The translations under genes were made by a program, and so were the position numbers. A stretch of 64,000 nt of DNA. Origin: Norana najaformis (taxonomy: Eukaryota > Annelida > Clitellata > Crassiclitellata > Hormogastridae). Numbering within the stretch: the first letter of the stretch is position 1; each line of letters opens with the position of its first letter. Positions 7,208 through 54,215 of the stretch are shown in pieces. The notes under the pieces are model-generated. The model did no database searches. It was not told the origin of the DNA and worked only from the letters and a program-made list of their open reading frames with translations. The DNA is taken from the NCBI GenBank assembly GCA_964023275.1, contig OZ029920.1, positions 2,202,572 through 2,266,571 on the forward strand. The letters run 5' to 3'.

Positions 7208-8336
7208 ATGACCGCGAGAGAACAGAACCCTGCAAGACAACTGAAAGACTTAACTGAGTGCTCAATCTGCACCAACGTATTCACAGATCCAAGAATGCTG
7301 CCATGCATTCATACATTCTGTTTTCAATGTCTTAAACGAACTGGAGAATCGAATAACAAGAAACGAGGAGACAAGATGCCTTGTCCGTTGTGTAGAAAGG
7401 AGTTCATTATTCCAGTGGAAGGCATCGCTGGTCTGCAGAAAAACTTCTTCATGGAGAATCTGATACAAATGACTACGAACTTGGAACAAAGTAACACAAT
7501 CACTCCCTGTGATATCTGCAAAATAGGTAAAACGACCGACGCAACAAACTGTCCTGAAGCTACAATGCAATGCATAGATTGTCAGCATAAGTACTGTGAT
7601 GACTGTTCAAAACAGCATCTTATGCAGCAACTGAACAAAACTCACCAAATTGTCATAATTGGAGGCAAAACAAATGAAGGCACTGGGCCAACATTTCAAG
7701 CAAAACATTGCACGAAACACACTCAGAAACCATTAGACTACTATTGCGGCAACTGCGAGAAAATCGTTTGTGTCTCGTGTTTTGTTGAGAGTCACAAGTT
7801 ACACGATTGCATAGATGTCGCCACAGTCGACAAAGAATTTCGTTATAAGATGGAAGTGAATGCATGGAAGATGTCGAGCTTCAATGATGAGATGTTGGCA
7901 TTGCGAATGAATGTGGAACAGAGAAAAGCAAATTTTCTAAAAGACATTTCCGAGAAAGAAGATGCAATTCGTAAAAGAAGTAGGCCTATGGAACTTAATG
8001 ATACGATAGACCAACACATAAAAGCTGTTTTAGAGGCACTCCATGTGGCGAAGCAAAGTAGCTTAAAGGAGTTAGAAGTCACAATTGAAGAAATAGACAG
8101 ATGTTGCACTATATTAACAAGTTTTGGGGCTTATTGTACTCAGCTAAGTTCAAAAGGATCGGCCAGCGACATCTGTAGCTGTATCGATGAAGTCATGAGA
8201 AGAGCAGATGAATTGGAAAAAGATCACGAGAAATTTGCTGGTCGATCACATCAATCTATCGAAGTTTCTTTCAAGCCTACTGATCTACAGGCACTCATAT
8301 GGATGTCGAACAACAACATTGTTGGTCGGATTCAAA
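7208..8336 (+). CDS. TRIM-Kelch gene 1, coding exon 1: RING, B-box 1, B-box 2, coiled coil
   Basis: First coding exon of a TRIM/RBCC-type E3 ubiquitin ligase; in this family the RING recruits a ubiquitin-loaded E2. The C3HC4 RING has C18, C21, C33, H35, C38, C41, C59 and C62. B-box 1 spans about C101-H146. B-box 2 is complete: C168, H171, C180, C183, C188, C191, H196, H199. A Lys/Glu-rich coiled coil spans about 205-340. The start is ATG 7208 (AAACATGAC, A at -3), because a conserved acceptor ends at 7187 and gene 2 has its ATG at the same place. The exon stops at ATTCAAA|GTAAGC (8336/8337), leaving phase 1; reading through would give an unconserved tail ending at 8404. Compared with gene 2 there is a 6-nt in-frame insertion at about 7981 that creates TAGGCCTA. 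Joined to 9141-10087 it gives 691 aa. Substrate unknown. Confidence 0.85.
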
Positions 8337-9140
8337 GTAAGCAGTTGCTGATAATGTTTTTGAATTTAGCTAGCCTAGAATTGCCATTTAATGGATTACA
8401 TTGAAACGCCGGGTGGCAATAGATTAGTGCTAATCTAAACGCCGGGTGGCAATAGATTAGTAGGGTAATTTTTTTTCCCAAAGAACTGAACTACTCGCAT
8501 TGTAAGGCGACTGACAAGAGCCCAAGCTTGTTGGCTTATTAGGCCGTTTTAAAAGGCATTGTCACGGATCAGCGATATTCGTCGTCTTCATCCTCACCTC
8601 CATCATAATCATCATCGTCGTCGCCGTCGTCAACGTCTTCGTTATCATCTTCTTCTTCGTCATCATGAAATAATTATCAATGATTTGCGAGAGAAATATG
8701 TAGGCCTACTACAACTTAAAGTATATTTCTCGAAAAGCCTGTGTCTGAAAAACAAGATAACTGATACAAAACTGGTATACTTGGCTACAATATTCAGGCG
8801 CACTTATGCATCTGTAGGGCAATGTTCCAGTTGCAGAGGAATCGGGTTGCACTAACCGGGGAAGGTGATATAAACAAAGCATTCGTTTGGCTGCAATAAA
8901 AAGTTGATATGTTAAAAACACACAGGATTAATCTGGAAATTAAAATACTTCTGTATAAAAAGAACTACTATAAGATTTATAGCCAAAGAGTCTTAATCGA
9001 AAGAGTTTTCAGATATAGCGAATATCAATATTAATTAGCATTGTTATAGATTTCATACACGATAAGACTAAGTAATTAGCAAATGACTAAATGTCCAGTT
9101 CATGCAATCGTCACTTACTAATGTGTATTTGTTTTAACAG
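8337..9140 (+). other. Gene 1 main intron
   Basis: GT-AG intron, phase 1: donor A|GTAAGC, acceptor TTTGTTTTAACAG. It has a tandem duplication of about 36 bp at 8402-8462 (GCCGGGTGGCAATAGATTAG twice) with the palindrome GATTAGTGCTAATC between. Gene 2 has one related unit. A CAT/CGT-rich stretch lies at 8580-8667. The Arg/His-rich frame at 8559-8855 follows that low-complexity sequence and is not a gene. Confidence 0.75.
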
Positions 9141-10087
9141 ATGAAACAGAAACCACTACGCAGTTTGAAAATTATGCAGTAGTTGGATTATATTATGGCA
9201 AGTCCATAACGAAGGACGTTGTCCAAATAAATTTGCGTCTTCCAAACAAAGTTCCAATTCTAAAACGAATACCTACTACAATGGAAGGCGACGCCGCAAC
9301 CGCCGTTTACTGTAACACGATGTACGTTACAGGAATAGGAGACAATTGCGATGAAATCTGGAAATACAACTTGGCTTCCGGTTGGATGAAATGCGCTTCT
9401 TTATTTCAAGGCCGACGTAACCACAGCGCAGCGTTTATCGGTGAAGTATTGTACATCTGTGGAGGATATGTGTATTCCGAGAGAAGAGCTCTAGACAGCG
9501 TCGAAGCTTATAATGCAGTCACCAATAAATGCACTAGAGTTGGAAAGCTTGTTCACTGTGTCCAAAGTTCAGGCAACTGTGTTCCACTCAAGACTTCGCT
9601 CTACATTTTCGGCGGTGGCGATAAATATTACAATGCGCTGACTCACGTTCAAGTATACGACACTAAACTTAACACATGCAGTCTCCTTTCGAAACCAATC
9701 CCACGTCCTCAGGGCTTCATGCGAGCTGCACTTTGGGATACATTTACTATCTTAGTTGGATGCGATACATGTTTTATATTTAACTTGAAGACAGAGACTT
9801 GGCAAGAAAGACAACGGTTCAAGACCGACGTTTATTACTTTGGTTTGGTTCTTGAGAATGATCGACTCTTTGTCATTGGAGGAGGAAACAGCGAGAAGGA
9901 TAAATATGGCCAACATAAATGGAAATTCAGAGATGAGGTACGTTATGTGCCTTTTCAGAATATTCTCGAGAATAAACAGACTGCTTGGAAGATTCACGCG
10001 AAGTTACCAGCACCGTCGCTTGTACATTCTTATGCAAAACTGAGGTTCCCAGTCACGCACCAAATTACGAACACCGATTTCTACTAG
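9141..10087 (+). CDS. TRIM-Kelch gene 1, coding exon 2: Kelch propeller
   Basis: The exon begins after TTTTAACAG at 9140; two bases complete the split codon (Asn) and the frame runs ETETTTQFENYAVVGL to the stop at 10085-10087. It encodes a Kelch-type beta-propeller, normally a protein-binding, substrate-selecting domain. Blade signatures include EVLYICGGY followed by SVEAYNAVTNKC, SLYIFGGGD followed by VQVYDTKLNTC, and RLFVIGGGN. A CDTCFIFN/TETW strand pair lies between the second and third. About five to six blades fit in 315 residues. In most metazoan Kelch proteins the partner is BTB-BACK; here it is RBCC. Two tracts match different paralogues: 9740-9905 is closer to gene 3 than to gene 2, and 9358-9465 is nearly invariant in all three. 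Confidence 0.85.
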
Positions 10088-10480
10088 CAATTCGTGAAGA
10101 TCAAACTAAGACAATTACAAATTAGGCCTACATGTATTTACTTTTTGTTGATATTTAACCGTGCCAGAGAAAACCCTTCACGAAATCGGAAAAGGGAATT
10201 TGCAAGAAACGCGCTCAGAAGGGACGTAGGCAAAGATTGGTCAACTGACCTTTATTGAATATTTATATTCCTATTTGAATATTTATATTCCTTGTTGTGT
10301 TAGCTCTCAAACTATGAGTCCTTATGTGGAGTTTCGCTGTCTAAGTTTTTTACTTTCAATTTTATTCTGATGTTCTGCACAAAACTTAATTTAACATGTC
10401 CTCTTGAAGTCCTGGTTATGTGAAACAGTTACTTTGCAACTAGCCAAGTTAAGTAAATCTTCGTCTTAACCAGCGTTAAT
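10088..10480 (+). other. Gene 1 3' UTR and flank shared with gene 2
   Basis: This stretch is collinear with 37817-38275 downstream of gene 2 (CGTGCCAGAGAAAACCCTTCACGAAATCGG against GTGTCTGAGAAAATCCTC, then TGTTAGCTCTCAAAC and GTAGAGTTTCGCTGT-type blocks). It ends near 10480, which marks the 3' edge of the duplicated unit. A short tandem duplication of TTTGAATATTTATATTCC is at 10253-10293. I saw no clear AATAAA near the stop. Confidence 0.5.
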
Positions 10481-11344
10481 GGAGATTTTATTATTTTATG
10501 GCATACACAGAGGTATATGAATACGTTCCAATTTATTAATTACACATAGCTTATAAATTGAAACTTCCAGGCACAGCGACTTAGGTTGGATCATAGTTTC
10601 GGTAAACTCTAACTCGTGATTTCTTAAAAGTAGCCGTCAAAAGACCTACACTGTACATCTTTAAAAATTGTAACCTTTTTACTCTTTGTGACAGAAACAT
10701 ACGACGTTCACATAATTATTCAATATGGCGCAGTGTTAGACGCAGTTTTGATTTTTCCGACTTTGTGAGGGTTTTCCCAGTCACAGGTACATATGATATT
10801 AAATAGCATGTAGTAGCATGTTGCATTACCACAAGAGTGTTTTTAGTTATACGCGGATGGTTTAAAAGCGGACCGTTTTGTTCCGCGGCCTTTGCCATAA
10901 CAGGGATTAACAGGTGTATCAGAAAATACATTTAGGCCTATGCGCCTATTCAATTGATTACTCGGTCCAAATGACGGCGAAAAAGAAAGATGTTAAGTTG
11001 TCGCCTTGAACGGATGGGAAGTGGCCTACGATTTTAAACAGGGCCTTTCAACACTTGAAGTGCAGTCCTCACATTTCTGCATCTCGTAAACATGAAACTA
11101 CCGCTAATAGTCTGCGTCACCAGTTGTTCTCTTCGTTCCTTAGACAATCGAGTCTCATGACAAGTCTATGCATCTTTCCGCCCGAAGCATAGGTCCATCG
11201 GGAAACGCATTTCGCACTATCAGAAAAAGCCTCTCCCTCGTTTTGTGCGAAGGCCTTCCTGCCTCATACTTCTATTTGCCATGCAACACATCTTACGGAG
11301 TAAGTTTTGTACCAGGTCTATGTGTTGGCAGTTCTCGGTCAACA
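10481..11344. other. Intergenic; inverted 3'-flank fragment and a Rep-C remnant
   Basis: At about 10748-10787 a short segment (CCGACTTTGTGAGGGTTTTC) is the reverse complement of the TRIM-Kelch 3' flank (37978-38006), so a scrap of a gene tail lies inverted here. Around 11070-11170 is a diverged minus-strand Rep-C fragment (CTCGTAAACATGAAACTACCGC compared with 17345-17370). Nothing else is recognised. Confidence 0.4.
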
Positions 11345-11802
11345 GCTCTAGTAAATTCTGCTTCAACAGATTCTGATAGGGTCTCCGTGGAACTCTTGAG
11401 AGTGAAGATCATTGCTCGATAACCTTCGCTATTTGACTAATAATCTTCGTCCCCACCTTCGCACTTTAGACTCTTGGAATTCGTCCAGTTGTAACTCCGT
11501 CACTGCATTCATTCGAGTGATGCCAGTTCAAAGCCTGGATGATCTCATCTAAAATCTCGTCTCTTCCTGGACCCATTTCTTCCATAGGTTGTTTCTGTGT
11601 CTTCTCGGATTCCTTTCTTGGTTTTTTGACCCGACTCACACGGAAAGTTGGCTTTGCATGACGATTTTGCTTAGGAGCGACCATCGACTGATGACTTGAG
11701 CATTATCACAGTGACGCTATAGAAGTTCTCAAATAATTAATGTGAAGAGGGCGACGCTTATCTTCTTCGCTAAGACACAGAATCGTTAAACAGAAACTGC
11801 AC
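11345..11802 (-). repeat. Rep-B, reverse copy
   Basis: Reverse complement of the 390-820 block, with the same landmarks (GCATTCATTCGAGTGATGCC, TTGTTTCTGTGTCTTCTCGG, GCGACCATCGACTGATG, GACACAGAATCGTTAAAC). A 72-codon minus-strand frame crosses it and is not conserved in other copies. Confidence 0.65.
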
Positions 11803-11864
11803 TCAACTGCCAATATGTATTCCTATAGTCATGTTTTCTACGTAAGTGGAGGTCGACGTCAACA

Positions 11865-11992
11865 GTGCTGGCAGCCATAAGATGTCGGAAAGCACTAAAT
11901 AATACTAAAATATCAACTGAATTATACTCTCTTTAGACACCTCTATATCGCTTTCTACAACCTTATATTATGCTCATTTTCGTTCACTTGCC
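11865..11992 (-). repeat. F/H module, reverse copy
   Basis: Order on the plus strand: GGCAGCCATAAGATGTCGG, then about 35 bp later TTTAGACACCTCTATATCGC, then TATATTATGCTCATTTTCG. It abuts the Rep-B copy to its left. Confidence 0.6.
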
Positions 11993-12950
11993 AATCCCCT
12001 GTAGATTCGAATACTAACATAATGTGACCTAATATCACTAAATGCTCGGTCGAGTGAAGAATAAATGGAAATAATGGTTTAAAGTTTTCATGTCTATTCA
12101 GCTTCTAAAAACCAGTTTACATTACAGTACAACATAAAGTAAATTAGAAAAACATTTGAATTTTTATATAAACTCTTGTATCGTCTTCTAAACGAATGAG
12201 TCGGATTGTGTCGTGTCAGAATTTAAAGCTGGTTCGAGTCGAGTTATCTCCAGTATGTGATGAGTCGGTTCCTTTAAGAATGACCCACCGAGAACTCTGT
12301 GCGACCCTGGCTGAGATTTGAGTCAGTGACCTTTCTGCTGATAGTCGATCTCGCTCACCAATACACAATATGCACGTATATGCGATCTAAGAGGAAATGG
12401 CGTCTGTGGTTCATGAGGAGATTGGCTCCGATGTCTCGAGCGAAAGATTATAGGTTGATTTATGACTGTGACGTTTGTCTAAGAGATTACGGACTGACAT
12501 TTATATTTAAATAACATCGCAGTACATGTCTCCTAAATACTGTAGGAATTTTAGTATCCAGTTGTCCAACTATGCTAAAGAGCCTAGGGAATTACGAAGA
12601 ACATAATATAATCAAAGAATAAAAACGCGTGCTGCTAGTGCCATCTAGGGAATCAAGCTTTCTTCTAGCAACTTCATAATTATTTATATGTTGTATTTGA
12701 AACCCGTCGAAAGATAAAGGGCCATAGACTGCGATTTGTAAATGCGGCATATTATGTTCTTTGGTTAACGACGAACAAACAAACATACAGCCAGAGCATT
12801 TGGCCTTTAACTGTTATTGTACTGATATCCGTAACCGATGATAATCGTAATCGTAATCGTTTGCTGTTAAATTCTTCATTGACATCATCTAAATTATTAC
12901 TTTGATTTTGGCTGGCTTTGTATTACCACATCTTCAATTCCTCTTTAATT
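11993..12950. other. Intergenic sequence, nothing recognised
   Basis: A lone (ATTACG)-type tail repeat on the minus strand at about 12841-12862 (ATAATCGTAATCGTAATCG) could be the relic of a LINE family-1 insertion, but no element body is next to it. Short frames (12299-12514, 12592-12786) have no recognisable content. Confidence 0.4.
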
Positions 12951-12964
12951 GGACTGACACTACA

Positions 12965-13175
12965 GTGATTGAACGAAAATGATGGATATATAACTTAAAT
13001 TACACCGAATTAAAGGTGTCTAAAGGCTTATAGGAAATTATTGTTGTATCGAGTGTTTAACAAATGATTTAAAACGAAATCTTGTGACTAATCGGCAGAT
13101 TGACTTTCCGCGAGTCTCATATAAATTAAAGTCGAATTCAACGGTTCCGACAGCCACAAGATGTCGTTAAACAAT
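12965..13175 (+). repeat. F/H module, forward, with an adjacent reverse H block
   Basis: GTGATTGAACGAAAATGATG, TATATAAC, GAATTAAAGGTGTCTAAAGG and GTGTTTAACAAATGA follow in canonical order. At 13147-13170 a reverse H block (CAGCCACAAGATGTCGTTAA) begins another partial copy. Confidence 0.55.
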
Positions 13176-13950
13176 AAAAACTAAATAACTGACCCAAAAA
13201 CCTGGTTTTTGCGGCGTTGATTTTAAATAGCGCCGGCGAATATTACACGCTGGTCTTCCTAACGTAGATTTGGTCGTTGTATTCTGAATATTACTAAAAC
13301 TAATATCCCCTTTTAGTCAACATTATATATTCTTCCTTTTACATGGAGACTGAATTGTTTACGTATTTTGCGAATTTCAATTTCTTAACCCGATTATATG
13401 AGTCTTCGCATCCGAGTCTGGCCGACCCTTACATCTGGGTGGATGCGGCTGATGCTACGAGAGGCAGAAGAAGCCAGAATCAACCTCAGTCTAACAACAA
13501 GATCGCCATCTCTGATTAGAGGAGTGGCCTCCTACTATTGAATACCATCGAATCTGACATTTAGCATCAGTTCCAGTCCGTAACGCATCAGTTTCTGTCA
13601 GTAGAGGATGAACACAGTATGGACCATAGTTCAGGCCATCGGGTAGCTTTGCAGCCACAAAGCATGATCGTCGTTATAGAGGCAATGCACTTTAGGCCTT
13701 AGATCTGTCAGATCTTGTATCATTTGCTGAAGTACATCTGCCTGATTTTTAAGGGTGTTGTCCACTTTGAAATGTCCAATACAATTCAATATAAATTCCA
13801 ACATAACATTGCTCAAATGCGTTGGCTAATGAAGAACAAAATCGAATTCTAATGGCACTGAAACAAATAAAACATCAGGTTACATTTAAATTGTATATTA
13901 ACTTACGGATTAAGTTTTAATACGGAGTCTCTGAGTTTGAAGTTATCGAT
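13176..13950. other. Intergenic sequence, nothing recognised
   Basis: No frame, RNA gene or shared repeat identified. The short minus-strand frames at 13631-13816 and 13903-14094 are partly Rep-B sequence or unconserved. Confidence 0.35.
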
Positions 13951-13954
13951 CAAC

Positions 13955-14412: not shown

Positions 14413-14431
14413 CAAATACAATGCTTTCTAG

Positions 14432-18062: not shown

Positions 18063-18168
18063 CCAATGTTTAACGACATCTAATGACGTCAAAGGCTGTT
18101 GACGTCGCCCTCCTCCTTTATCCAGGCTTGGGACTGGCACTGCCCCAAATCAAGGCAGTGGCGGAGTT
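18063..18168 (+). repeat. SINE-A, forward copy
   Basis: Runs from TTTAACGACATCTAATGACG through GTTGACGTCGCCCTCCTCC, TATCCAGGCTTGGGACTGGC to AGGCAGTGGCGGAGTT. This is the reverse complement of the copy at 20601-20716, which has clear target-site duplications. Confidence 0.7.
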
Positions 18169-22560: not shown

Positions 22561-22590
22561 ATTATAATAAAAACTAAATAGTGTAACTAA

Positions 22591-22693
22591 ACTCCGCCAC
22601 TGCCTTATTTGGGGGTAGTGCCAGTCCCAAGCCTGGATAAAGGAGGAGGGCGACGGCAACGGCAGTCGTTAAACATTGGAACTACTACTAATC
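22591..22693 (-). mobile_element. SINE-A insertion with 10-bp target-site duplication
   Basis: ACTCCGCCACTGCC to AACTACTACTAATC, flanked by GTGTAACTAA at 22581-22590 and again at 22694-22703. It is missing part of the internal CCTTTGATGCCATAAG segment. A diverged second copy follows at 22706-22800 (CAATCCTGGATTATGGAGG). Confidence 0.7.
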
Positions 22694-26826: not shown

Positions 26827-27050
26827 GCACTAGCTGTAGGTTGCACTAGCTGTAGGTTGCACTAGCTGTAGGTTGCACTAGCTGTAGGTTGCACTAGCTG
26901 TAGGTTGCACTAGCTGTAGGTTGCACTAGCTGTAGGTTGCACTAGCTGTAGGTTGCACTAGCTGTAGGTTGCACTAGCTGTAGGTTGCACTAGCTGTAGG
27001 TTGCACTAGCTGTAGGTTGCACTAGCTGTAGGTTGCACTAGCTGTAGGTT
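26827..27050 (+). repeat. 16-bp minisatellite, 14 perfect copies
   Basis: The unit GCACTAGCTGTAGGTT is repeated 14 times without error (224 bp). Perfect identity means very recent amplification or active homogenisation, or an assembly effect. CTAG and AGCT palindromes occur in each unit. Confidence 0.95.
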
Positions 27051-27099
27051 GCAATCAACAAAACTACGAAATATATAACATTTAAAGAAAACGAGCATT

Positions 27100-33074: not shown

Positions 33075-33510
33075 AGAGTTCGAAATTTCACTGGAAACGT
33101 TAGGGAACTCGATCAACGCTCAATTGGTTCGGTTTTTCTCCATTGATCGTTCACGTTAATTGCGTCAATCGAACCGTTGCACTTCAGAAAGTATGAAGAG
33201 ATATGAACCACTTTATACTTACTTTGAACAAATTAACCTTAATTAATCTGAGTAAGTATTAGCTCACATTCGGTCTTTTCAAGTGTTCTTTACTAGGGTC
33301 ATGGGTTTGGTCAAATTAAAGCCTCGGCTACTTAGCTCACTCTACAGATAACGCTGGTTGAAAATATGGGACTACTTGGGCAAAGGGCTTAGTTTCTAGA
33401 TGTTCGCTTAAGACATGCCAACGCTTTCAACATAGGGACAAAGATCGCCAGGTAAGTTATCGAATATCGTTGCTGGCCGATACATGCACTACATTCATTT
33501 GTATTGTAAA
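33075..33510 (+). promoter_or_regulatory. Promoter region and probable 5' UTR exon of gene 2
   Basis: Collinear with 5430-5853 upstream of gene 1 (TCGGTTTTTCTC.ATTGAT, CTTCAGAAA, CACTCTACAGATAACGC, ACATAGGGACAAAGATCG). Two donor candidates: CAG|GTAAGT (33451/33452, strong) and AAA|GTAAGAC (33510/33511, the one kept in all copies). The exon lacks about 35 bp present in gene 1. Confidence 0.5.
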
Positions 33511-34301
33511 GTAAGACTTGTTGTTAGTTACTACACTTCCTTCAAAACCGAACCCTTTTTACTTTCACACTTTTCCTCTGAATGTCGGACGATAGCAACA
33601 TGACACATTGACCGTTTTGCTGCGCTTCAAACTAAGATGAAGATTTGAATTAACTAACTCACATAGATGTCTTAATAAAGAGAAATCATTGAAACAGGAA
33701 GTAAAGCTAAGCCGACAAACTGACAAATATGCTGGGCTAATTTTATGAAAAATCATGTTTTGGGTAAAGTACGGTAGGTTCTGTACAGCTCCATGTAATT
33801 TTAGATCCACTTATAAGACCGTATATCAGCCAAAGATACAAACCTCTTGGTCATAATCACTTGGCCATCGCTCAACAATTCATTCAGTGTAGAAAAACTT
33901 TATTGAAAATGTGTATTCAGAAAAGCATTGCTTCTTTCTGTCTCTTATTAAGTACTAAGATTCGAAAGTCACGAACAAAAGAATGAATCTGTGCATGCCT
34001 TCAGTTTTATTTAGATCAACGTAGAAGAACGGGCCAGCTTCAGATATATCTTCAGTTTTATTGTTTATTTTAATTTTTTTTTGTAATTGAGACTTATTCT
34101 TTCATACACAAAAAGCTTAATAATTTGGGAAAAATCGTGAGTCGTCCCTACCCAGTTTTCTTATCGGGAGATTCACAGTAGCTATCATATACTTCAAACC
34201 ATATCCACCTACAATGTGTCTACATCTAAAGCATTTCGTTAACTAAACAGTTTCATGGGATAGATTAACTTTATCGAAGTGTACTGACATTTTGATTATA
34301 G
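33511..34301 (+). other. 5' UTR intron of gene 2
   Basis: Proposed GT-AG intron with acceptor TTTTGATTATAG at 34301. It matches the gene 1 intron on both sides of the LINE that gene 1 alone carries. Confidence 0.5.
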
Positions 34302-34321
34302 GTAGAACTACCACAGTAAAC

Positions 34322-35444
34322 ATGGCCGCGGGAGAACAATTTACTGTAAGACAACTGAAAGACTTAACTGAGTGCTCAATTTGCACCAATGTATTTACGG
34401 ATCCAAGAATGTTGCCATGCACTCATACCTTCTGTTTTCAATGTCTCAGTCGAACTAGAGAAGCGGCAAATAAGAAACGAGGAGAAAAGATGCCTTGTCC
34501 GTTGTGTAGAAGGGAGTTCATTATTCCAGTGGAAGGCATGACTGGTCTGCAGGAAAACTTTTTCATGGACTATCTGATACAAATGACGACGGACTTGGAA
34601 CAAAGTAACACATTCACTCCCTGTGATATCTGCAAAATGAGTGAAACGGCCGACGCAACAAACATTCCTGAAGCTACTATGCAATGCATAGATTGTCAAC
34701 ATAAGTACTGTGATAACTGTTCAAAACAGCACCTAACGGAGAAATTGAGCAAAACTCACCAAATTGTGACAATCGGAAGCAAAACAAATGAAGGCACTGG
34801 ACCAACATTTCAAGCAAAACATTGCACCAAACACACTCAGAAACCATTAGACTACTATTGCGCCAACTGCGAGAAAATCGTCTGTGTCTCGTGTTATGTT
34901 GAAAGTCACAAATCACACGATTGCAAAGATGTCGCCACAGTCGACGAAGAATTTCGCTATAAGTTAAACAAGAATACATGGAAGATGTCAAGCTACAAAG
35001 ACGAAATGTTGTCAGTGAGGAAGAATGTGGAAGAGAAAAAAACAAAGTTCCTAAATGGTATTTCCAAGAAAGAACATGCAATTCGTAAAAGAAGTTTTGA
35101 GCTTCAGATTATGATAGACCAACACACAAAAACTCTGTTAGAGGAACTCCATCAGGCGAAACAAAGGTTTTTAAAGGAATTGGAGCACACAATTGAAGAC
35201 ATAAACAGATGTTGCACAAAATTAAAAAGTTTCGGGAATTACTGTACTCAGTTAAGCTCCATAGGATCGGCCATCGACATATATAGTTGTTTCGATGGAG
35301 TCACGAGGAGAGCAGTTGAGTTGGATAAGGAACACGAGGCATTCATTGATCGACCATATGAATCTATCGAAGTTTCTTTCGAGGCTACAGGTCTACAGGA
35401 GCTGTTATCGAAGTCGAACAACAACATTGTTGGTCGGATTCAAG
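34322..35444 (+). CDS. TRIM-Kelch gene 2, coding exon 1: RING, two B-boxes, coiled coil
   Basis: RBCC exon of a second TRIM-Kelch paralogue. Start is ATG 34322 (AAACATGGCC, good context), 20 bp after the conserved acceptor. The RING keeps C18, C21, C33, H35, C38, C41, C59 and C62; H34 to T34 before H35 is the only nearby change from gene 1. B-box 1 starts at C101, and B-box 2 is at C168/H171...H196/H199. The coiled coil is Lys/Glu rich and free of stops. The frame is open to 35452, but the paralogues show the exon should end at ATTCAAG (35444) with phase 1, which puts GCAAGT at the donor: a GC-AG intron. Joined to 36897-37816 it gives 680 aa. Likely a cytosolic ubiquitin ligase; substrate unknown. 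Confidence 0.85.
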
Positions 35445-36896
35445 GCAAGTAGTTGCTAGGAATGTTTTTGAATTTAGCTAGTCTATAATTATTAAATAAT
35501 GGATTTAATTGAAACGGTAGGTGGCAATAGATAAGTGATAGTAAGAATAGTGTGTTATTTTGTCTCCTAGTTAAAGCGATTGACAAAATCGCAGGCTTCT
35601 TGGCTAATTAAACCAATTTTTAAAGCCCAAATATTTAAAAAACACCGATATTAATAATCATCGTCATCATCCTTTTCATGATAACAAATTAATTGTCACT
35701 GAGGTGTCAGAAATATGTGCTACAAGAGAAAGTACATATCTCGAAACTCTTTGCAGAGAATATTTTTTAAGAGCCAAAAGAACTTTCTGGAAGAAAACTG
35801 GTAGAAAACTTCGCTGTGTTTGAGCCTTATGCTCAACATTGCTTCGGTAGAAGGAAGCTCCAGTTGTAGAGGATAAGTTTGTTTTAACCGGGAACGTGTC
35901 ATAAGCTAAACGTTCGTCAGTTGTATAAAGTCAAGATGCAATACTCTCAGATATTACAATATTTCTATACATAGAGGCCTACATAATATTTTTAGTCAGA
36001 TGGTAAACTGGATGTCTTCACTGAAATGGAAAAGCAGCTAGTGTCATATTTGTTTAAGGTAGTCACATGTTTGATACGTGATTAGCCTTAGAAATGAGGA
36101 AATGAATAGATGAATATTGCCCCATCCATAGTCCATGCAAAACTTGACTACTGCAATTCACTTTTCCTCAATATTGACACAACCCAGATAAATCGCCTAC
36201 AAGCTATCCAGAATGCTCTCGCACGTGCTGTCACCAAAACCCCCAAACACCATCACATCACCCCTGTTCTCAAATCACTGTACTGGCTTAAAATACCAGA
36301 ACGAATAGAGTACAAAGTCTTATCCCTCACCTACAACACACTTCAATCCTCCCAACCCTCCTATCTTCGTCAATTATTTACTATCCAACCACTCCGTTCA
36401 ACCCGCTCCTCATCTGTCCTAACACTTCTTCGCCCTCCCGTCACCTCATCCTTAAAATTTGGAAATCGCTCTATAGCCATAGCTGCCCCACCCCTTTGGA
36501 ATAAACTCCCGCCAGAATTTCGACAGTTGTCTGGTCAATCATACGAACTCACCAACACTTCACCTCTTTCAGTTTCTGCGCAGGTGTTTCACTCAAGACT
36601 GAAAACACTTCTTTTCCAGAAATCTTATCCTGATTCTTCCTCTTCCCCTTATCTCTCTTCTCGCTTCAATTTCAAACAGCATCCACCGTAGTCGTCCGAC
36701 TGTCTGAGTGCCTGACTCCTGGATCTTGACCCTTTTGCTTATCGATTTTGTTTTGACTGAGCGCCTGTGAATAAGCTGGTTCCCGCAACTTAGCTTTCGT
36801 TGAGCGCTGTAGAAATCTCGAGATTACGATTACGATTACGATTACGATGTTGAGTTTATGCATCAATCAATTATCATTGTCTATTTGTTTTCACAG
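35445..36896 (+). other. Gene 2 main intron (GC-AG)
   Basis: The donor reads CAAG|GCAAGT, with GC replacing the GT of genes 1 and 3. The acceptor is TTTGTTTTCACAG. Phase 1 fits the frame on both sides exactly. The intron is about 650 bp longer than in gene 1 because a LINE sits at 36100-36847. Confidence 0.7.
36100..36847 (+). mobile_element. CR1/L2-like LINE family 1, best copy, in the gene 2 intron
   Basis: An open frame (36110-36691, 193 codons) encodes the ORF2 carboxy terminus: KLDYCNSLFLN, LQAIQNALARAVT, HHITPVLKSLYWLKIPERIE, APPLWNKLPPEFRQLS and FHSRLKTLLF. The 3' UTR ends GAAATCTCGAG plus (ATTACG)n at 36818-36847. It is 5' truncated, with no endonuclease or RT palm, but the remaining frame is intact, so it is the youngest family-1 copy here. 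It lies in sense orientation with the host gene. Confidence 0.8.
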
Positions 36897-37816
36897 TTGA
36901 AACAGAAACCACTACACATTTTGAGAACAATGCAATAGTCATGGGGTTATGTGATGGCAACTCCATAACAAACCACCTCGTCCAAATAAATCTACATCGT
37001 CCAAATGAAATTTTCCATTTACAGGAAATACCGACTGAAATGCAGAATGAAGCCACAGCCACCGTTTACTGTAACACGTTGTACAGCACAGGAATAGGGG
37101 ACAATAAAGATGAAATCTGGAAATACAACTTGGCTTCCGGTTGGATGAAATGCGCTTCTTTAGTTCAAGGCCGACGTGGACACAGCGCAGCGTTTATCGA
37201 TGAAGTATTGTACATCTGTGGAGGATATGTGGATGAAGATGAAATAGTTCTAGACAGTGTGGAAGCCTACAACGCAGTCACCAACAAATGCTCCAGAGTT
37301 GGGAAGCTGGTTCACTGTGTCCAGGATTCAGGCAACTGTGTTCCATTCAAGACTTCGCTTTATATTTTCGGTGGTGGCGATAAAGATAACTATGCGCTGA
37401 AAAGCGTTCAAGTATACAACACAAAACTGAACACATGCACTCTCCTTTCGAAACCAATGCCACGTCCTTGTAGCTTGATGAGAGCTGTACTTTGGGAGAC
37501 AACCGCTATTTTAGTTGGCCACGACATTTCTTTTATATTTAACTTTGAGAAAGAGACATGGCAAAAAAGAAAACATTTTAAGGCCGACGTTTTACATTTT
37601 GGTCTGATTCTTGAGGATGAACGACTATTTGTCATCGGAGGAGGAGTTACAGAAAAGAATAAAGATGGTAGCAAGACATGGAATTGCAGAGATGACATTA
37701 AATTTGTCCCACTTATGAAATTCCTGAACGACAAAACAAGCGAGTGGAAGATTCATTCGAAGTTGCGAAAACCAACTCTAGTACAGTCTTATGCAAAACT
37801 GAGGTTGCTTGTCTAG
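36897..37816 (+). CDS. TRIM-Kelch gene 2, coding exon 2: Kelch propeller
   Basis: Begins after TTTTCACAG (36896); the split codon reads Val and the frame continues ETETTTHFENNAIVMGL to the stop at 37814-37816. Kelch blades are visible at EVLYICGGY...SVEAYNAVTNKC, SLYIFGGGD...VQVYNTKLNTC, ILVGHDISFIFN and RLFVIGGGV. The carboxy-terminal half departs from the other two paralogues: HDISFIFN.EKETWQKRKHFKADV replaces the CDTCFIFN/TETWQERQ/FKTDV pattern shared by genes 1 and 3. The 108-bp tract at 37117-37224 differs from gene 3 by only two bases. An AATAAA at 38006-38011 could be its polyadenylation signal. Confidence 0.85.
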
Positions 37817-38280
37817 CAGCAAATCAGAGAGATCTATTTTAACTGAAGACGTTCATTAGCAATTTCGTACGGCCAAACTTAGACAGTAAAAATTAGCGTT
37901 GAGGCAATGTTTAGGGCAAAAAACTAATACAGTTACGTATTGGGCCTATTTGCTTTTCGTTTGATTTGTGACTGTGTCTGAGAAAATCCTCACAAAGTCG
38001 GAAAAAATAAATTTGCGAGAAACGCTTTCTGAAGGAAAGTAGACATAATATGAATCATAATGCGTTATATGCATATTTACAGTATATTCCTTTTTGTGTT
38101 AGCTATTGAACATTAATTCCGTATGTAGAGTTTCGCTGTAAAAGTATTTTTATTTTTATTTTATTATGCCTTGCCACAAAAACTTTAAATTAACATGTAC
38201 TCCGGTGCCCTACTCGTTTGTTTAAATCAATCACTATGCAAGTTACCAAGTCAGGCAAATATTCGCCTATTTTAATTTAG
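37817..38280 (+). other. Gene 2 3' UTR and flank shared with gene 1
   Basis: Collinear with 10088-10480. AATAAA at 38006 is a candidate poly(A) signal; the matching position in gene 1 lacks it. Homology fades at about 38280. Confidence 0.45.
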
Positions 38281-43582: not shown

Positions 43583-43789
43583 TTTATGTAAAATGATCTG
43601 CCTAATTTATGTAAAATGATCTGCCTAATTTATGTAAAATGATCTGCCTAATTTATGTAAAATGATCTGCCTAATTTATGTAAAATGATCTGCCTAATTT
43701 ATGTAAAATGATCTGCCTAATTTATGTAAAATGATCTGCCTAATTTATGTAAAATGATCTGCCTAATTTATGTAAAATGATCTGCGTAG
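43583..43789 (+). repeat. 23-bp minisatellite, about 9 copies
   Basis: Unit TTTATGTAAAATGATCTGCC plus TAA, repeated about nine times with one change at the end (GCGTAG). Near-perfect identity indicates recent expansion. Each unit has TGATC on an A-rich background. Confidence 0.95.
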
Positions 43790-43837: not shown

Positions 43838-44070
43838 ATATTAATGATGATGATGACGACGACGATGATGAAAGCAAATGAGTTAGATCGTGGCTGGGCA
43901 AGGCAAAACTGTTTACTGATTTTCTTATATTCATTCACTTCATACAACACGTTGATGAACTCTGCCACTGCCTTACCTGGGGTGGTGCCAGTCCGAAGCC
44001 TGGAAAAAGGAGGGGGATAGCGCATCTAGTCATCTTCGTTATGACGCAGTGTCGCTAGACAGAAACTACA
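43838..44070 (-). repeat. ATG/ACG triplets and SINE-A/Rep-B hybrid
   Basis: A short ATG/ACG run is at 43840-43871. From 43953 SINE-A (AACTCTGCCACTGCC, GTGCCAGTCCGAAGCC) switches to a Rep-B end (GTCATCTTCGTTATGACGC, AGTGTCGCTAGACAGAAAC), like the hybrid at 22900-23015. Confidence 0.55.
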
Positions 44071-46145: not shown

Positions 46146-46159
46146 AATCAATTATTACT

Positions 46160-47050: not shown

Positions 47051-47135
47051 AATATTGAATACGAGCAGAATTTAAATAATTGCAGAGATTGATAATCGCC
47101 TGAAAATCGCAAAGTGGTACAAGAGAAAAAAATTA

Positions 47136-47725: not shown

Positions 47726-48580
47726 CAAATTCCTAATTTTCTGTCAAACGTTAGTGTATAGTTATTAATACATTGTGTAGAAGCAGGTCGAAGTAAACTG
47801 CGTTGGCGGCGACTAGATGTCGCCAAACACTCATTGCTATTTGAGAACATGAAGCGCGCATTTTTTTGAGTTGCAAAACTCTTGTCAAGTGCGGAAAATC
47901 GACTTCGCGTTTGATTTTATTCAGGTAGAAAAACACCTGATGCTTCACGAAGTTTGTTCATTGTGCTAAGCGGCCAAAAGTTGCCATAAAACATATAACC
48001 GTAAATTTAATTAATATGCGTTGTTTCACTAGAGGGCGTCGGAGGGAGGACTCCAACGAAAATCATCATATATTTTGGATACTTGGTCGTGTAAATCCCG
48101 ATGAATAGAAAAGGTAGCAAAAATTACAGTCAGTATAAAACGCAATCATCCTCCTTATTTAGACCCCTTTTAAAACAATTCTGAAGGCGGCTTTCCCCAC
48201 TCTCTAAATCGCGCCCACGGCATATATACGTAATGTTGTTTAATTAAGAGTAATCAGACATCAATGCATCGGCGTTCGAAATTATATGAATAGATATCGT
48301 CTCATTATGAGATGCAGGAAGACAGCAATAGGTATTTGATGTCCTGCTGTTTTCAATCGAAATTGTTAAAAAAAAACTTCAGAGTCAAACTTGACTAAAA
48401 AAATCACGACAAAGCCAAGCTTCATCTGTTGTTTTACTCCATTTCTCGAGTATTTGCTCTTTGCTCGTATTAAACTTCCAATCTATGACTTGCGGCGTCT
48501 CGAATCATCGCTTTCAGCGATTCACTTTCTACTCGACTGAAAAAATGAATCACCCAACTTTTACAACCGTTTCGATGCAC
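47726..48580. other. Intergenic sequence, nothing recognised
   Basis: A reverse H-like block (GGCGGCGACTAGATGTCGCC) is at about 47803-47822. No other landmark or gene. Confidence 0.35.
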
Positions 48581-48587
48581 TAACATG

Positions 48588-48910
48588 AGAAAGCGAATGA
48601 AAGGTGTGGGACAATTTGAATCAAGGATGGAATTTTACAAGCGATTGATATTATAGTGAATGCCAGTGTTTAATGATACCTTGTGACCGCCAAAGTATTT
48701 AGAGTCGATATTCCTATACACGAGCGGATTAGCCAATCTGGTTTTCGATAAAAAAAAAAACGAAAACAAATAATATATAACTAATGAGGATACAATTTAA
48801 AGGTGTCTAACCGTAACTCGCTACTTTTTTAGTTGTATCCAGTTTTTATCGACATCTTGTGGCTGTCAGGGCCCATGAAGTCGCCTCTCGATTATATATC
48901 GATAATATTC
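48588..48910 (+). repeat. F variant, H block and F/H module, forward
   Basis: AAGCGAATGAAAGGTGTGGGAC.ATTTGAATC (variant F), CCAGTGTTTAATGATACCTTG, then TATATAACTAATG, CAATTTAAAGGTGTCTAACC, CGACATCTTGTGGCTGTCAG. Confidence 0.6.
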
Positions 48911-48924
48911 GTTTGGCAGATCGA

Positions 48925-49200
48925 ACATCCCTGCTCAGAAAAAACCGTTGGTCATCACCAGGGAAGATGGCAAAACGACAGGATGGCTTGACTCTTATCC
49001 TATGATCTCGTAAACCGGGCAGCCTCAGCCAAAAGGTTAAAATACGTCACTATAGCCAAAACCCGTGTTCAGTGGCGGTCGCACTGGAGACCAGCGGCGC
49101 ATGGAGTAAAGAAGGATTGGATTTTGGAGTTAGGACGAAGGATGAGCACGGCAACCCACGGCGCAACGTCATCTGCTTCTCCGGAACTCTACCATAAACA
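48925..49200 (+). mobile_element. Retroelement ORF2 tail fragment, frameshifted
   Basis: Across three frames: KRQDGLTLIL, then AASAKRLKYVTIAKTR, then W.KEGLDF and ELGRRMSTATH...TS. This resembles a recurrent tail of invertebrate retroelement RT proteins (DGLTLIPW ... AA..K..KY ... LGRRI). Several shifts break it. Assignment rests on remembered family patterns, so it is tentative. Confidence 0.4.
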
Positions 49201-49215
49201 TGTAGAAACCCCAAA

Positions 49216-49285
49216 CCCCAACACCAACAACACCAGCAACAACACCACCACCACCAACAACAACAACAACAACAACAACAAGAGT
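49216..49285. repeat. (AAC)n trinucleotide repeat
   Basis: ACCAACAAC.. to CAACAACAACAAC; it encodes a poly-Asn frame that should not be taken as a gene. Confidence 0.9.
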
Positions 49286-49895
49286 AATAACGACGACACT
49301 GTCGCTTAAAGCAAAATTAGATTCAACGCAAAACAGATGTCTCATGTGTGGCGGAAGTTGATGTTCAAAGCTGAAGCTGTACTCAAATAACTCCATGTAC
49401 CCGGGGGCCCGGGAGCCATGGGGCCAAAGGCGCCGATGCTCACACAAGTTTTGGCTCTGTGAAGCCCAGGAAGGAGCATGCTCACACAACTTTTATGGGC
49501 AACGGGGATATCTACCTATGTCACGGAACAAGCATTAATACTGAGAAATTAATACAGTGACACATACTATGGTATTTCGTCAAAAATTAATTTTATCCAC
49601 CTTAGGTCTGTACTTGGCTGAAGTTGGCTCACACAACTTTTAAACACTTCCTGGGCCACTGCGTGTACCAATTTTAGATGCGGACGTTCTGGACAAACCC
49701 CGCCCCCGTTGTTCGCAAATGGGAGACCAATCCGTTCCTCCTCTTTGTGGACGCCCTTTTAAATGGATGACCATTTACTTAATGATTAAGCTTATGATAT
49801 AGCAGAGGGGTAATACTGGGCAAAAAGCAATAAAGTACGTAAAGCAGCAAGAGCAGACAAAGCCAAATGGCTTGAATATAAATGCAGAGATGTAG
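49286..49895. other. Intergenic; duplicated short segment
   Basis: GCTCACACAA.TTTT occurs three times (49437-49453, 49480-49493, 49628-49642) with nearby GAAGCCCAGGAAGG / CTTCCTGGGCC text. A segment at 49665-49740 (TGCGGACGTTCTGGACAAACCCC, CGCAAATGGGAGACC) resembles 23095-23155 (TGCGGACGACCGCAC, CGCATATGGGTAACC), so a further dispersed repeat exists. No gene. Confidence 0.4.
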
Positions 49896-49897
<2 letters not shown>

Positions 49898-49989
<92 letters not shown>

Positions 49990-50040
49990 CCGTAAAACAG
50001 TGATTTTAAGGTGTCTAAGCGTAATCTAACAATTAATAGA
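49898..50040 (+). repeat. (AT)n array followed by F core
   Basis: AT run 49898-49988, then GTGATTTTAAGGTGTCTAAGCG at 50000-50021. The array has replaced or expanded the TATA part of the F module. Confidence 0.8.
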
Positions 50041-50134
50041 ATCGAGCGTTTCATTAGTCATTGCTATGACAGCATGAATAAACCGTAATGTGAAAATTGC
50101 GACTAATAAATCTTTAGAACATGAATTACGCCAT

Positions 50135-50356
50135 AGATCCTATTATCCGTTGTATAACTGAGCTCAATCAATAAGAAGTTTCTGCCTAAGCCAATCAGTC
50201 AATCGTTTACAGAGCACAGTATACCAGTCTGAAAGAAGTTTAGCAACAAACAGAGTTACAGGTAGATGGACTTTGCTGTCATTTGCATGCATACTTTTTG
50301 ACCTCATCTAGCTAGCAACTTATTTGCATAAGAAACTGCCGAGAAGAAGTTACGAA
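50135..50356 (+). promoter_or_regulatory. Promoter region and probable 5' UTR exon of gene 3
   Basis: Homologous to the orphan region at 2000-2219 and ending in the conserved donor GAA|GTAAGACA (50356/50357). TTTCTGCCTAAGCCAATCAG is shared with 2050-2070. The match to the upstream regions of genes 1 and 2 is limited to the donor. Transcription start not located. Confidence 0.45.
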
Positions 50357-51447
50357 GTAAGACATATTTAGACTTTTTCTTAGGTCCTTACTATCGCTTA
50401 ATTTGTTAATTTGTGAAATCCATACGCTGCACTGTGATTGTTGGAGTTGATAATAAAGAGTGTTTCGTAGCTGTAGTGTTGCCCCGACCGAAACGCTGTC
50501 TTAGCCTCTAGACTTTGACGGCAGGTACAAAAAAAAAACAATGAACGAGTACAAATCAGATAAGGCTTTAGCGATTTTGAAAAAAAGAAATTAATGTCTC
50601 TTATGTGAAATTATCAAAAAGGAAATGCCACAGTTAATTTTATTCGACCAGACAACTCTTAGAATTTGAAATCGAAAGTAAAAATTAAGCAGCGGAAATT
50701 TAACCCGTAATTTCCAATGATGTAGAATTATTAATGAACAAGTGGCGCACGACGATTCGTCGATATAAATAAACTGCTGTCTGTCACGAATAGACAACTC
50801 GTGTGTTCGAGAAAACTGTTTTTTCTCCCGACATGGACTGCTAGGCTACAATTTATATACAGCCTTTAAATATACAACTTTAACTATTCACAGTCCTGTT
50901 TAAAAAACCTTCAAATGTTCAGTAATAACTATTGTCCACAAAACTACTAAAACAAGAGCTACTTACATTTTCCTGGCTAAACTTCTAACTAAATAAGTTT
51001 ACTTCTTAAATCACACTACTGCCATTTTAAACTGTACATGTTTCCCTTCTCTTGATTCCCCTCTCTCTCAAACCAGCTAGCCGTTTTATAGCCCAATCCT
51101 TTGAAACACACCCTTCATTCATATCGTGCCCAGAACTCACTTAAGCGTGACCCAACCCTAGTACTTTTATGTAGCGCTAATATATACTTTCTTCGCTACA
51201 CTGTCCACAGTTTGATTTTGTTAAATTTTGCCGCATTTAGCGATGAAATTTTTGCCATAGTCAAAATCTGATATTTTTCGTGCATATAACCAACTTTTCT
51301 CATTCTTTGGTGATACTTTCAAGCAGCTTCGTCCAATGAAATTCACTGTAAAACTTTGATTTGTGTCATTTTGTAAAACTTAAATTAGGAGTATTACTTA
51401 ATTGCTGGTTCGAAATAATAAGAGTTGAAAAGTAAGTTTTCTTGCAG
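50357..51447 (+). other. 5' UTR intron of gene 3
   Basis: Proposed GT-AG intron with acceptor TTTTCTTGCAG at 51447. Its first 400 bp match 2220-2650. About 50820-51190 has no counterpart elsewhere and ends near TTTTATGTAGCGC, so it may be an insertion. Confidence 0.45.
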
Positions 51448-51468
51448 GCAGCAATTAAACCATTTAAC

Positions 51469-52579
51469 ATGGCTGCAGCTGGATGTCAACTTCAGAAACT
51501 GACGGAATGCTGTATATGTTTCCAAACATTTACTGATCCTAGAATGCTGCCATGCATTCACTCGTTCTGTCTCGAATGTCTCAAACAAACAGCCGATGCA
51601 GCAAAGAAGAAATCAGGAGAGAATATGTCTTGTCCCTCGTGCAGAAAACTGTTCGTTATTCCAGCAAATGGCCTCGATGGACTTCAGAAAAACTTCTTCA
51701 TAGAAAATCTCATGGGAGTCGCGACTAATTTGCAACTAAGCAGCACGTCAGTCATTCTTTGTGATATATGCAAAGATCTTTACGAGGGCGACGAAAAGAC
51801 AAGAACTACTACGATGCGCTGCTTTGAATGCAGAAACAACTTTTGCGATAGTTGTGCAAAAGCACATAAATTGCATAAATCAAGCAAAGACCATCATATT
51901 GCGAAAATTGGAAGTGAAACGGAAGAAGACATCAGAAAAATGCTACGATCAGTAAATTGCACTGATCACAATGATAAGCCATTAGACTTATATTGCGCTA
52001 ATTGCAAGAAAATTCTATGCGTAATGTGTTTTGTTGAAAATCATGCATCACATACATGCAAAGGTGTGACTACAGTCGAGGAGCAATTCCGACAAACAAT
52101 TAAAACAAATGCATTCAAAATTGCGAACTACGCTGATGTTGTGTTAAAAGAGGGAAGGAGAGTGGAACAGAGAAAGGAAAATGTCCTTTTAAAATTAGCA
52201 GAAACAAAAAGTGAAATTCGAAAAAGAAATCTAGAACTTAAAGAAATGATAGACGACCACACAAAGTCCCTTCTGGATGAGTTGTCTCTGATAAAACAGA
52301 AGCAGGTAAAGAATTATGAAAACGAAAAGGAAGAAATTGAACGCATTCACATCATTTTAAAGAGTTTTGAGACTTACTGCACCGAACTAAGATCGAAAGG
52401 ATCGGCCAGCGACATCTGCAGCTGTGTTGACAAAGTGTCAGTGAGAGCAGACGAGTTGGAGAACGATCACGAGGAATTCTTTGGTCGTCCGCGTCGATCA
52501 TTCGAAGTTTCTTTCCAAACAACAGATATACGAGAATTTTTAGAGAAATCCAACAGTAATGTCGTGGGACAAATTAAAG
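51469..52579 (+). CDS. TRIM-Kelch gene 3, coding exon 1: RING, two B-boxes, coiled coil
   Basis: RBCC exon of the third and most diverged paralogue. Start is ATG 51469 (TTTAACATGGC), 21 bp after the conserved acceptor. The RING begins CCICFQTFTDPRMLPCIHSFC; the C3HC4 set is complete (C14, C17, C29, H31, C34, C37, then CPSC). B-box 1 begins CDICKDL; B-box 2 is CTDH...YCANC...CVMCFVENHASH. The coiled coil (about 200-330) is Lys/Glu rich. Roughly half the residues differ from genes 1 and 2, mostly in B-box 1, the linker and the coiled coil. The exon ends ATTAAAG|GTAAAA (52579/52580), phase 1; reading on gives an unconserved tail (KNCPNCLS). With 53293-54215 the protein is 677 aa. Confidence 0.85.
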
Positions 52580-53292
52580 GTAAAAATTGTCCTAATTGCT
52601 TAAGTTAAGATTCTGAGGTGGTTGGCTTGCATTTGAGCTGAGTGGACAGAGAACTTGCAAAGAGGACAGGTTCTCGTTTTAGTCTCCAACTTTTGCGATA
52701 TCGCTTATTTTTGAGTTGAAATCTCCCATTTTCCGGATTGCTTATCTCCTGTGTCGCTTGTCTTCTGTCCTGAGAGACCTCAAAAATTCGGCTGATTCTG
52801 TTTCGGATGATTTGTGGTTTTAAAATATGGTTTTGATTAGAAGCGACCGTCGATTGAGGCGACGTGTTTTATAATAAAAACGAAGCTATACACGTTTCAA
52901 GATATGATATTACAATGACTAATAAAATATTCCATTACACTACAGTACACTACACAACATCACATCACATTTCATTGCTTTATATTACATTCGTTTTAAT
53001 AAGGTTATTATATCGCATCATAATTCATTAGATCACATTGCATTTCACTAGAATACATAACCTTAGATTCAATGAATGCAATAGATTACACTAAATTGCA
53101 TTGGATTGCAATGCATTAGATTACATTATTTTAGAATATGTTACATCAGATTTAATCATTCTCTGACAAATGTTCATAAGAAGTGAGCAAATGAAGAAAT
53201 GCTCGGCGAAATGGTCAGTTATAATAATGGTGAAGATAAATGAATACTATTATCAGTTTAACCATCAATTTTAAATATATCTGTTTCATCAG
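52580..53292 (+). other. Gene 3 main intron
   Basis: GT-AG, phase 1: donor AAAG|GTAAAA, acceptor CTGTTTCATCAG. It carries a reverse Rep-B fragment (52840-52890, AGCGACCGTCGATTGAGG) and an ACATT/CATT-rich stretch at 52925-53150. This is the only long dispersed-repeat fragment seen inside a gene body apart from the LINEs. Confidence 0.7.
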
Positions 53293-54215
53293 CTAAAACA
53301 GAAACCACTACACTGATTGAGAACTATGCAATAGTCGTGGGATTAGGTGATGGGTCGACCATAACAAATGACGTCATCCAAATAAATCTGCGTCGTCCAA
53401 ATGAAATTTCAACTCAACAACGAATACCGACTACAATGAAGATGGAAGCAGCTGCTGCCGTTTACTGTAACACGATGTACGTTACAGGAATAGGAGACAA
53501 TGCAGATGAACTCTGGAAATACAACTTGGCTTCCGGTTGGATGAAATGCGCTTCTTTAGTTCAAGGCCGACGTAGACACAGCGCAGCGTTTATCGATGAA
53601 GTATTGTACATATGTGGAGGTTTTGCCAATTCAGATGGCAGAGTTCTAGACAGCGTGGAAGCCTACAACGCAGTCACCGACAAATGCTCTGCAGTGGGAA
53701 AGGTGGTTCACTGCGTCCAGAATCCATGCAACTGTGTACCATACAAGACTTCGCTCTACATTTTCGGTGGCAGAGATAAAGATTACAAGGCGCTGAATGA
53801 CGTTCAAGTGTACGACACAAAACTGAACACATGCGCTCTCCTTTCGAAACCAATGCTAATTGGTTACAACTTACTGAGAGCTGCACTTTGGGAGACAACC
53901 GCTATTTTAGTTGGATGCGATACTTGTTTTATATTTAACTTTGAGACGGAGACTTGGCAAGAAAGACAACAGTTCAAGACCGACGTTTATCACTTTGGTT
54001 TTGTTCTTGAGAATGAACGACTCTTTGTCATCGGAGGAGGAAACTACGAAAAGGATAAAGATGGAAAAGATTCCTGGAAATGCAGAAACGACGTACGTTA
54101 TGTTTCAATTCGAAATATCATCGAGGATAAACCGACTGAGTGGAAGATTCATGCAAAACTGCCTCAACCATCTGAGATACATGCCTACGAAAAATTGTCT
54201 TGTTTTATCCCATAG
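53293..54215 (+). CDS. TRIM-Kelch gene 3, coding exon 2: Kelch propeller
   Basis: Starts after TTTCATCAG (53292); the split codon reads Ala and the frame runs KTETTTLIENYAIVVGL to the stop at 54213-54215. Kelch signatures: EVLYICGGF...SVEAYNAVTDKC, SLYIFGGRD...VQVYDTKLNTC, GCDTCFIFN.ETETWQERQ, RLFVIGGGN. Although exon 1 is distant from gene 1, this exon is close to it, with TMYVTGIGDN and CDTCFIFN...FKTDVYHFG identical or nearly so. The tract 53513-53620 differs from gene 2 by two bases in 108. It therefore looks like a recombinant. Confidence 0.85.

Follow-up and report, generated by a model that had tools for sequence, protein, structure and literature searches.

Tandem two-exon genes predicted to combine a TRIM-type RING/B-box half with a variable Kelch propeller in the annelid Norana najaformis

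TRIM ligases and Kelch adaptors are two of the main routes by which animals select targets for ubiquitination. The established carboxy-terminal classes of TRIM proteins are SPRY, NHL, filamin, MATH, bromodomain, ARF, and others, and the genes of the NHL class are few and conserved. The substrate face of the KEAP1 Kelch propeller is made up of its BC and DA loops. Among the described systems, the TRIM-NHL proteins TRIM2, TRIM3, TRIM32, and TRIM71 carry a RING, B-box, and coiled-coil (RBCC) half followed by a propeller, and the KLHL/KEAP1 cullin-3 adaptors carry BTB and BACK domains followed by a Kelch propeller. The available part of PMC3503706 places the four TRIM-NHL proteins in subfamily C, and that of PMC8251876 describes the Kelch domain of KEAP1 crystallised with an Nrf2 peptide and compares the NHL propellers of TRIMs with the Kelch adaptors of cullin ligases. 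Here, we analysed a stretch of 64,000 nucleotides (the window) from Norana najaformis (GenBank assembly GCA_964023275.1, contig OZ029920.1, positions 2,202,572 to 2,266,571, forward strand), which contains three genes with an RBCC exon followed by a Kelch exon. Like the TRIM-NHL genes, they place a propeller behind an RBCC half, whereas this propeller is Kelch and not NHL: Kelch_1 scored E 5.1e-21 to 1.6e-16, and at E 0.1 NHL gave no match. With the KLHL/KEAP1 adaptors they have the Kelch propeller in common; in contrast to those adaptors, they are without BTB and BACK in the scanned frames and have a RING in the same gene.

The three RBCC-Kelch genes were confirmed at the places where a first-pass annotation of the window had put them. 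Each has two exons on the plus strand, and the joined frames span 7208–10087, 34322–37816, and 51469–54215. Gene 1 joins 7208–8336 to 9141–10087 (691 amino acids), gene 2 joins 34322–35444 to 36897–37816 (680 amino acids), and gene 3 joins 51469–52579 to 53293–54215 (677 amino acids), with a single terminal stop, TAG, in each. The first exon ends in phase 1 in all three genes and the acceptor is always AG; the donors are GT, GC, and GT, respectively, so that the introns at 8337–9140 and 52580–53292 are of the GT-AG type and that at 35445–36896 is of the GC-AG type. The GC donor of gene 2 (AAG/gcaagt) was absent from the first-pass annotation. Its junction coordinates (8336/9141, 35444/36897, and 52579/53293) proved exact, and its claim that a phase-1 junction joins the halves in frame was borne out by joined frames that are open in all three genes.

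The domain content was examined by a Pfam scan of the six exon frames, which extend slightly beyond the splice sites, with curated cut-offs. All three first exons contained zf-RING_UBOX (E 2.7e-10, 1.9e-11, and 3.1e-10 for genes 1–3) and zf-B_box, corresponding to B-box 2 (E 6.1e-8, 1.1e-7, and 9.3e-9), and all three second exons contained Kelch_1 (E 5.1e-18, 1.6e-16, and 5.1e-21), in every case above the cut-off, in agreement with the same-strand RBCC and Kelch halves proposed earlier. For B-box 1 there was only an ANCHR-like hit, at 19.1, 27.0, and 24.0 bits with the cut-off at 27, and the Cys and His ligands of this box fit the pattern in the three genes. In gene 1, the RING lies at about 7259–7393, B-box 1 at about 7508–7651, and B-box 2 at about 7700–7816; the corresponding positions are about 34373–34507, 34622–34765, and 34814–34927 in gene 2 and about 51508–51642, 51757–51897, and 51955–52062 in gene 3. 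A probable helical region follows the B-boxes in genes 1 and 2. In gene 3, AlphaFold2 (AF2) predicted a single long helix there with low confidence (residues 203–308, about 52075–52392; mean predicted local distance difference test score (pLDDT) of the exon 50.0, with block means of up to 83 in the helix). A pattern test found the RING zinc ligand spacing complete in all three genes, with an Ile inside the first pair of Cys residues and an Arg following the final Cys. These two residues have roles in E2 binding and as the linchpin, respectively, and the ligand set is as in active RING ligases.

No match to BTB, BACK, SPRY, or NHL was obtained at E 0.1 in the six frames. At the same threshold, the second exons matched only Kelch-type families and none of the TRIM carboxy-terminal classes named above. 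The hidden Markov model search proposed with the first-pass annotation, for another domain in place of Kelch, was thus run on the window exons and returned Kelch_1. Motif reading by eye of the gene 3 Kelch exon gave six blades, with blade one completed by the final strand. Among solved chains, designed Kelch propellers were closest to this exon, followed by chains that include KLHL12, KLHL7, KLHL20, KLHL3, KLHL2, and KEAP1; for the RBCC exon of gene 3, the closest ones include TRIM2, TRIM28, TRIM3, and TRIM56.

The two exons very probably belong to one spliced gene, and the evidence for this, drawn from the DNA itself, is strong. None of the three window genes has an ATG in its open Kelch frame at the acceptor or further upstream, and the similarity among the Kelch exons starts at the acceptor, directly after which all share the residues TETTT; therefore, an upstream exon must supply the start, and a separate Kelch message is unlikely. 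Ten copies were examined, namely the three window genes and seven loci elsewhere in the genome. In all ten, the Kelch exon is preceded on its own strand by an RBCC exon, whose donor falls at one shared codon. Between window genes, the exon pairs are 49–75% (RBCC) and 68–72% (Kelch) identical over nearly their full length, which, together with the order and donor codon shared by the ten copies, excludes chance. Eight loci, gene 3 and the seven outside the window, were fetched as L001–L008, and all have a GT donor at that codon. The usual acceptor AG is changed in four of them (L002, L005, L006, and L007), where an AG nine bases downstream, found by eye, would keep the frame. Among the seven outside loci, the RBCC exon is open throughout its visible part in five.

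The alternative, that RBCC and Kelch exons lie on separate messages or that the Kelch exon is a stray neighbour, so that no fusion protein exists, appears very improbable to us. The RBCC frames do run 2 to 22 codons beyond the donor before a stop, which would allow an unspliced RBCC-only protein, and in two of the eight fetched loci an open Kelch frame stands beside a broken RBCC exon. Against it stand the missing start and the shared TETTT in the window genes, the constant order, strand, and donor codon in all copies examined, and the in-frame AG that remains in each fetched locus with a changed acceptor. Both halves are under purifying selection in the window genes, with ratios of nonsynonymous to synonymous distance (dN/dS, Nei-Gojobori method, NG86) of 0.29–0.43 for RBCC and 0.42–0.57 for Kelch.

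The gene 3 Kelch exon (306 residues) was searched against the genome of 608,420,607 bases in 17 contigs. From 189 candidates, 129 scored matches were obtained, 122 of which lie on contig C8, four on C11, and one each on C7, C9, and C17. Contig C8 has 35,155,284 bases, and 118 of the 129 matches lie below 5.4 Mb, that is, in 0.9% of the genome. The first copy begins at base 5899, and the 86 matches below 2.9 Mb have a median spacing of 18.7 kb, with 56 on the minus strand and 30 on the plus strand. The first-pass annotation had described a tandem, varying family from the window, and the array is far larger than three. At least 270 of the 306 residues are covered without stops in 102 matches, of which 77 are at least 60% identical to the query (74 on C8 and three on C11), two are 50–59% identical, and 23 are below 50%. 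The low-identity matches may belong to other Kelch families, and the match on C9 sits in a frame of 577 amino acids. The number of RBCC-Kelch genes may be of the order of 80 to 100, which is an estimate only. In the viral_contigs set, 101 stretches fit a pattern for relatives and none was confirmed. A second cluster occupies 4.3–5.3 Mb of C8, where 19 of the 23 matches below 50% identity are found, all of at least 270 residues, stop-free, and 41–47% identical to gene 3.

Within Kelch, the ten copies vary most on the face that is expected to bind targets. The mean entropy was 0.91 bits in the BC loops and 0.83 bits in the DA loops, compared with 0.38 in AB, 0.46 in CD, and 0.35–0.42 in the strands; at the exon ends it was 0.47 bits in the first 11 residues and 1.10 bits in the last four. 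Pooled, the BC and DA (top) loops reached 0.87 bits against 0.40 elsewhere, 0.44 in the AB and CD (bottom) loops, and 0.37 in the strands, and the top and bottom loops differed with a permutation p of 0.00045. When the labels were shifted round the domain, none of 305 shifts reached the observed contrast in either ten or eight copies; a shift by one residue came near it (0.44 vs 0.47). When a profile was anchored on nothing but the ends of the six b strands, it peaked just after the anchor, at BC, and 15–16 residues before it, at DA.

The histories of the two halves differ in several respects. The RBCC exon of gene 3 shares 49% identity with those of genes 1 and 2, and the latter two share 75%, whereas all Kelch pairs are 68–72% identical. 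Between genes 1 and 3, the NG86 synonymous distance is 1.23 for RBCC and 0.42 for Kelch. Among L001–L008, Kelch distances are 0.07–0.12 whether the introns are 3% or 23% apart. The Kelch data rejected the RBCC tree in the approximately unbiased (AU) test (p 0.0002); the RBCC data rejected the Kelch tree by AU (p 0.038) and not by the Kishino-Hasegawa (KH) or Shimodaira-Hasegawa (SH) test (0.089). For Kelch, the pairwise homoplasy index (PHI) indicated recombination whether ten or eight copies were used (p < 0.0005 each); for RBCC, it gave no clear signal (p 0.36 and 0.06). With 600-base Kelch pieces, p was still at most 0.002, so that length is not the cause of this difference. Exchange between copies would be the likeliest cause of the Kelch pattern.

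From these results, we lean slightly towards the view that the genes encode E3 ligases, one protein per gene, that act as single chains without a cullin and vary in the targets they bind. Each gene would give a protein with a TRIM-type RING, B-box, and helical amino half and a six-blade Kelch propeller. By analogy with known families, the RING would recruit a ubiquitin-carrying E2, the chain would dimerise through the helical region, and a target bound on the BC/DA face of the propeller would then be ubiquitinated; as there is no BTB domain, cullin-3 would not be needed. At one end of contig C8, the array would grow through duplication, and the Kelch exons would have a history partly separate from that of RBCC, probably owing to conversion or unequal exchange close to the intron at the junction. 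This would yield a ligase repertoire in which a single catalytic half is paired with many binding faces and for which microbial or otherwise fast-changing ligands would be the likeliest driver. A more far-reaching proposal, which we make tentatively and hold to be rather doubtful, is that the genome maintains, at a single chromosome end, a germline repertoire of about a hundred such ligases, in which the catalytic half is conserved and the Kelch faces are varied by loop change and inter-copy exchange around the phase-1 intron; this repertoire would be a Kelch equivalent of the TRIM-SPRY restriction factors.

Several observations weigh against the view that these are recognition ligases of varied specificity. 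The copies examined are 10 of 129 matches, and L001–L008 were the best scorers against the gene 3 Kelch exon. In the seven outside loci, the visible part of the RBCC exon starts between residues 59 and 171 (numbered as in gene 3), the flank ending before the RING. The exon is broken in two of them, by a frame change in L005 and by stops in L007 that leave 222 residues open before the junction, and the Kelch frames of both are open all the same. Seventeen of the 129 matches contain stops, and matches do not equal genes, since some neighbours are pieces of one exon. The AF2 models were poor, with a mean pLDDT of 39.6 for the Kelch exon (from an alignment of three sequences) and 50.0 for RBCC. 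Blades and loops were labelled by eye on the basis of the Kelch motif, with the ten-copy alignment already seen. Support values in the trees were mostly low. Without the loop codons, the Kelch PHI p rose to 0.26 (ten copies) and 0.0075 (eight copies), and with third positions only it was 0.58 and 0.057. Gene conversion in Kelch is not claimed as established, because the PHI signal comes mainly from loop codons.

Selection estimates point in the same direction. Pooled dN/dS (NG86) was 0.84 in the BC and DA loops, 0.68 in the AB and CD loops, and 0.34 in the strands, so that the bottom loops are not far below the top loops and the contrast between them is weaker than in entropy. The ratio exceeded 1 in the top loops in 13 of 45 pairs, and with the pooled value of 0.84 positive selection on the loops is not claimed. 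Synonymous distances were 0.29 in BC and DA, 0.14 in AB and CD, and 0.26 in the strands; the top loops thus have twice the divergence of the bottom loops at silent sites as well, so that some of the contrast is not peculiar to amino-acid change.

These values bear on the possibility of an ordinary expansion under relaxed constraint, in which the genes would be real RBCC-Kelch ligases, the array would have arisen via drift, and tolerant loops would have diverged with no recognition repertoire. The loop ratio that stays below 1 overall, the raised silent distance of the top loops, the stops in some matches, and the RBCC exons broken in two of the seven outside copies favour it, and propeller loops tolerate change in most propellers. 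It accounts less well for the twofold amino-acid variation of the BC/DA loops over the AB/CD loops, for the 7–11% difference between Kelch exons in the seven fetched pairs with introns only 3–6% apart, and for the 102 matches that are long and open. The second broken RBCC among the outside copies and the higher silent distance of the top loops make our preferred explanation and the germline-repertoire proposal less likely and relaxed constraint likelier; we give the latter a real but minor chance.

If the family does serve recognition, its purpose might lie outside immunity, in gamete compatibility, allorecognition, or lineage-specific development, with divergence from other causes. Large, clustered, loop-diversified families also fill such roles, and nothing in the data is specific to pathogens. 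The joined proteins show no signal peptide or membrane segment by eye, without a predictor, and a cytosolic RING ligase would suit intracellular targets more than surface recognition. Such a role seems conceivable and somewhat unlikely to us. The pathogen or damage recognition suggested with the first-pass annotation is, like any immune role of the RBCC-Kelch family, an inference.

The surroundings of the genes contain duplications and several repeats. The unit with gene 1 (5432–10466, plus strand) matches the unit with gene 2 (33122–38268, plus strand) in three pieces at 73.5–80.9% identity, flanks included, in a self-comparison of the window. The self-comparison also placed a repeat of about 0.75 kb at 36113–36844, inside the gene 2 intron, and whole or partial inverted copies lie upstream of gene 1 at 2647–3391 and 6111–6549; its frame resembles by eye the end of a long interspersed nuclear element (LINE) reverse transcriptase and has no Pfam match at E 0.01. 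The palindrome TAGGCCTA occurs nine times in the window against 0.64 expected, and one copy, at 7981 in the RBCC exon of gene 1, coincides with a two-residue insertion of that gene relative to genes 2 and 3. Perfect tandem arrays with 100% matching are found at 26827–27053 (14.2 copies of a 16-base unit) and 43583–43785 (8.8 copies of a 23-base unit). Four other open reading frames of the window had no Pfam match at E 0.01, no tRNA was found in the window, and no Rfam family matched it at gathering scores.

Below gathering scores, the type-P1 twister ribozyme RF03160 gave 17 matches (E up to 0.1) at 18103–61878 of the window, the best at 22585–22654 on the plus strand. Eleven of them had E below 1e-4, and none reached the gathering score of 67.2. 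Most of these eleven share a repeat of about 100–120 bases that starts at the ribozyme, while the one at 43953 on the plus strand shares only about 60. The repeat is sometimes arranged head to tail, with a second copy 129 bases on at 61810 on the minus strand. It is a short dispersed repeat with a putative self-cleaving ribozyme at its 5′ end, in a retrozyme-like layout. No RF03160 match was found in L002–L008 at E 0.01.

With regard to known systems, we count the RBCC-Kelch genes as a variant of the TRIM kind and do not claim that they are absent from print. The word kelch does not occur in the available part of the main text of PMC3503706, and no Kelch class of TRIM is named in the available part of PMC3137616. 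Among the matches listed in the literature, no title or abstract opening mentions an RBCC-Kelch family; subscription journals are mostly outside this coverage, and it is no proof of absence. Unlike the TRIM-NHL genes, the RBCC-Kelch copies are many and variable. If our reading is true, a Kelch face placed directly on a TRIM catalytic half would make these proteins natural single-chain degraders of changeable specificity, and fast-evolving recognition of the TRIM-SPRY type could arise on another binding fold. The fish multigene TRIMs (finTRIM, btr, and hltr) and TRIM5alpha are, as far as the available sources describe them, also RBCC ligases in large families with hypervariable loops on the binding face. 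For the fish TRIM-B30.2 families, the available part of PMC3137616 reports hypervariable loops, positive selection by likelihood tests, and recombination breakpoints; positive selection is thus reported there, whereas the pooled dN/dS of the BC and DA loops in the ten copies is 0.84. In those described families the variable domain is B30.2/SPRY, whereas in the family found here it is Kelch.

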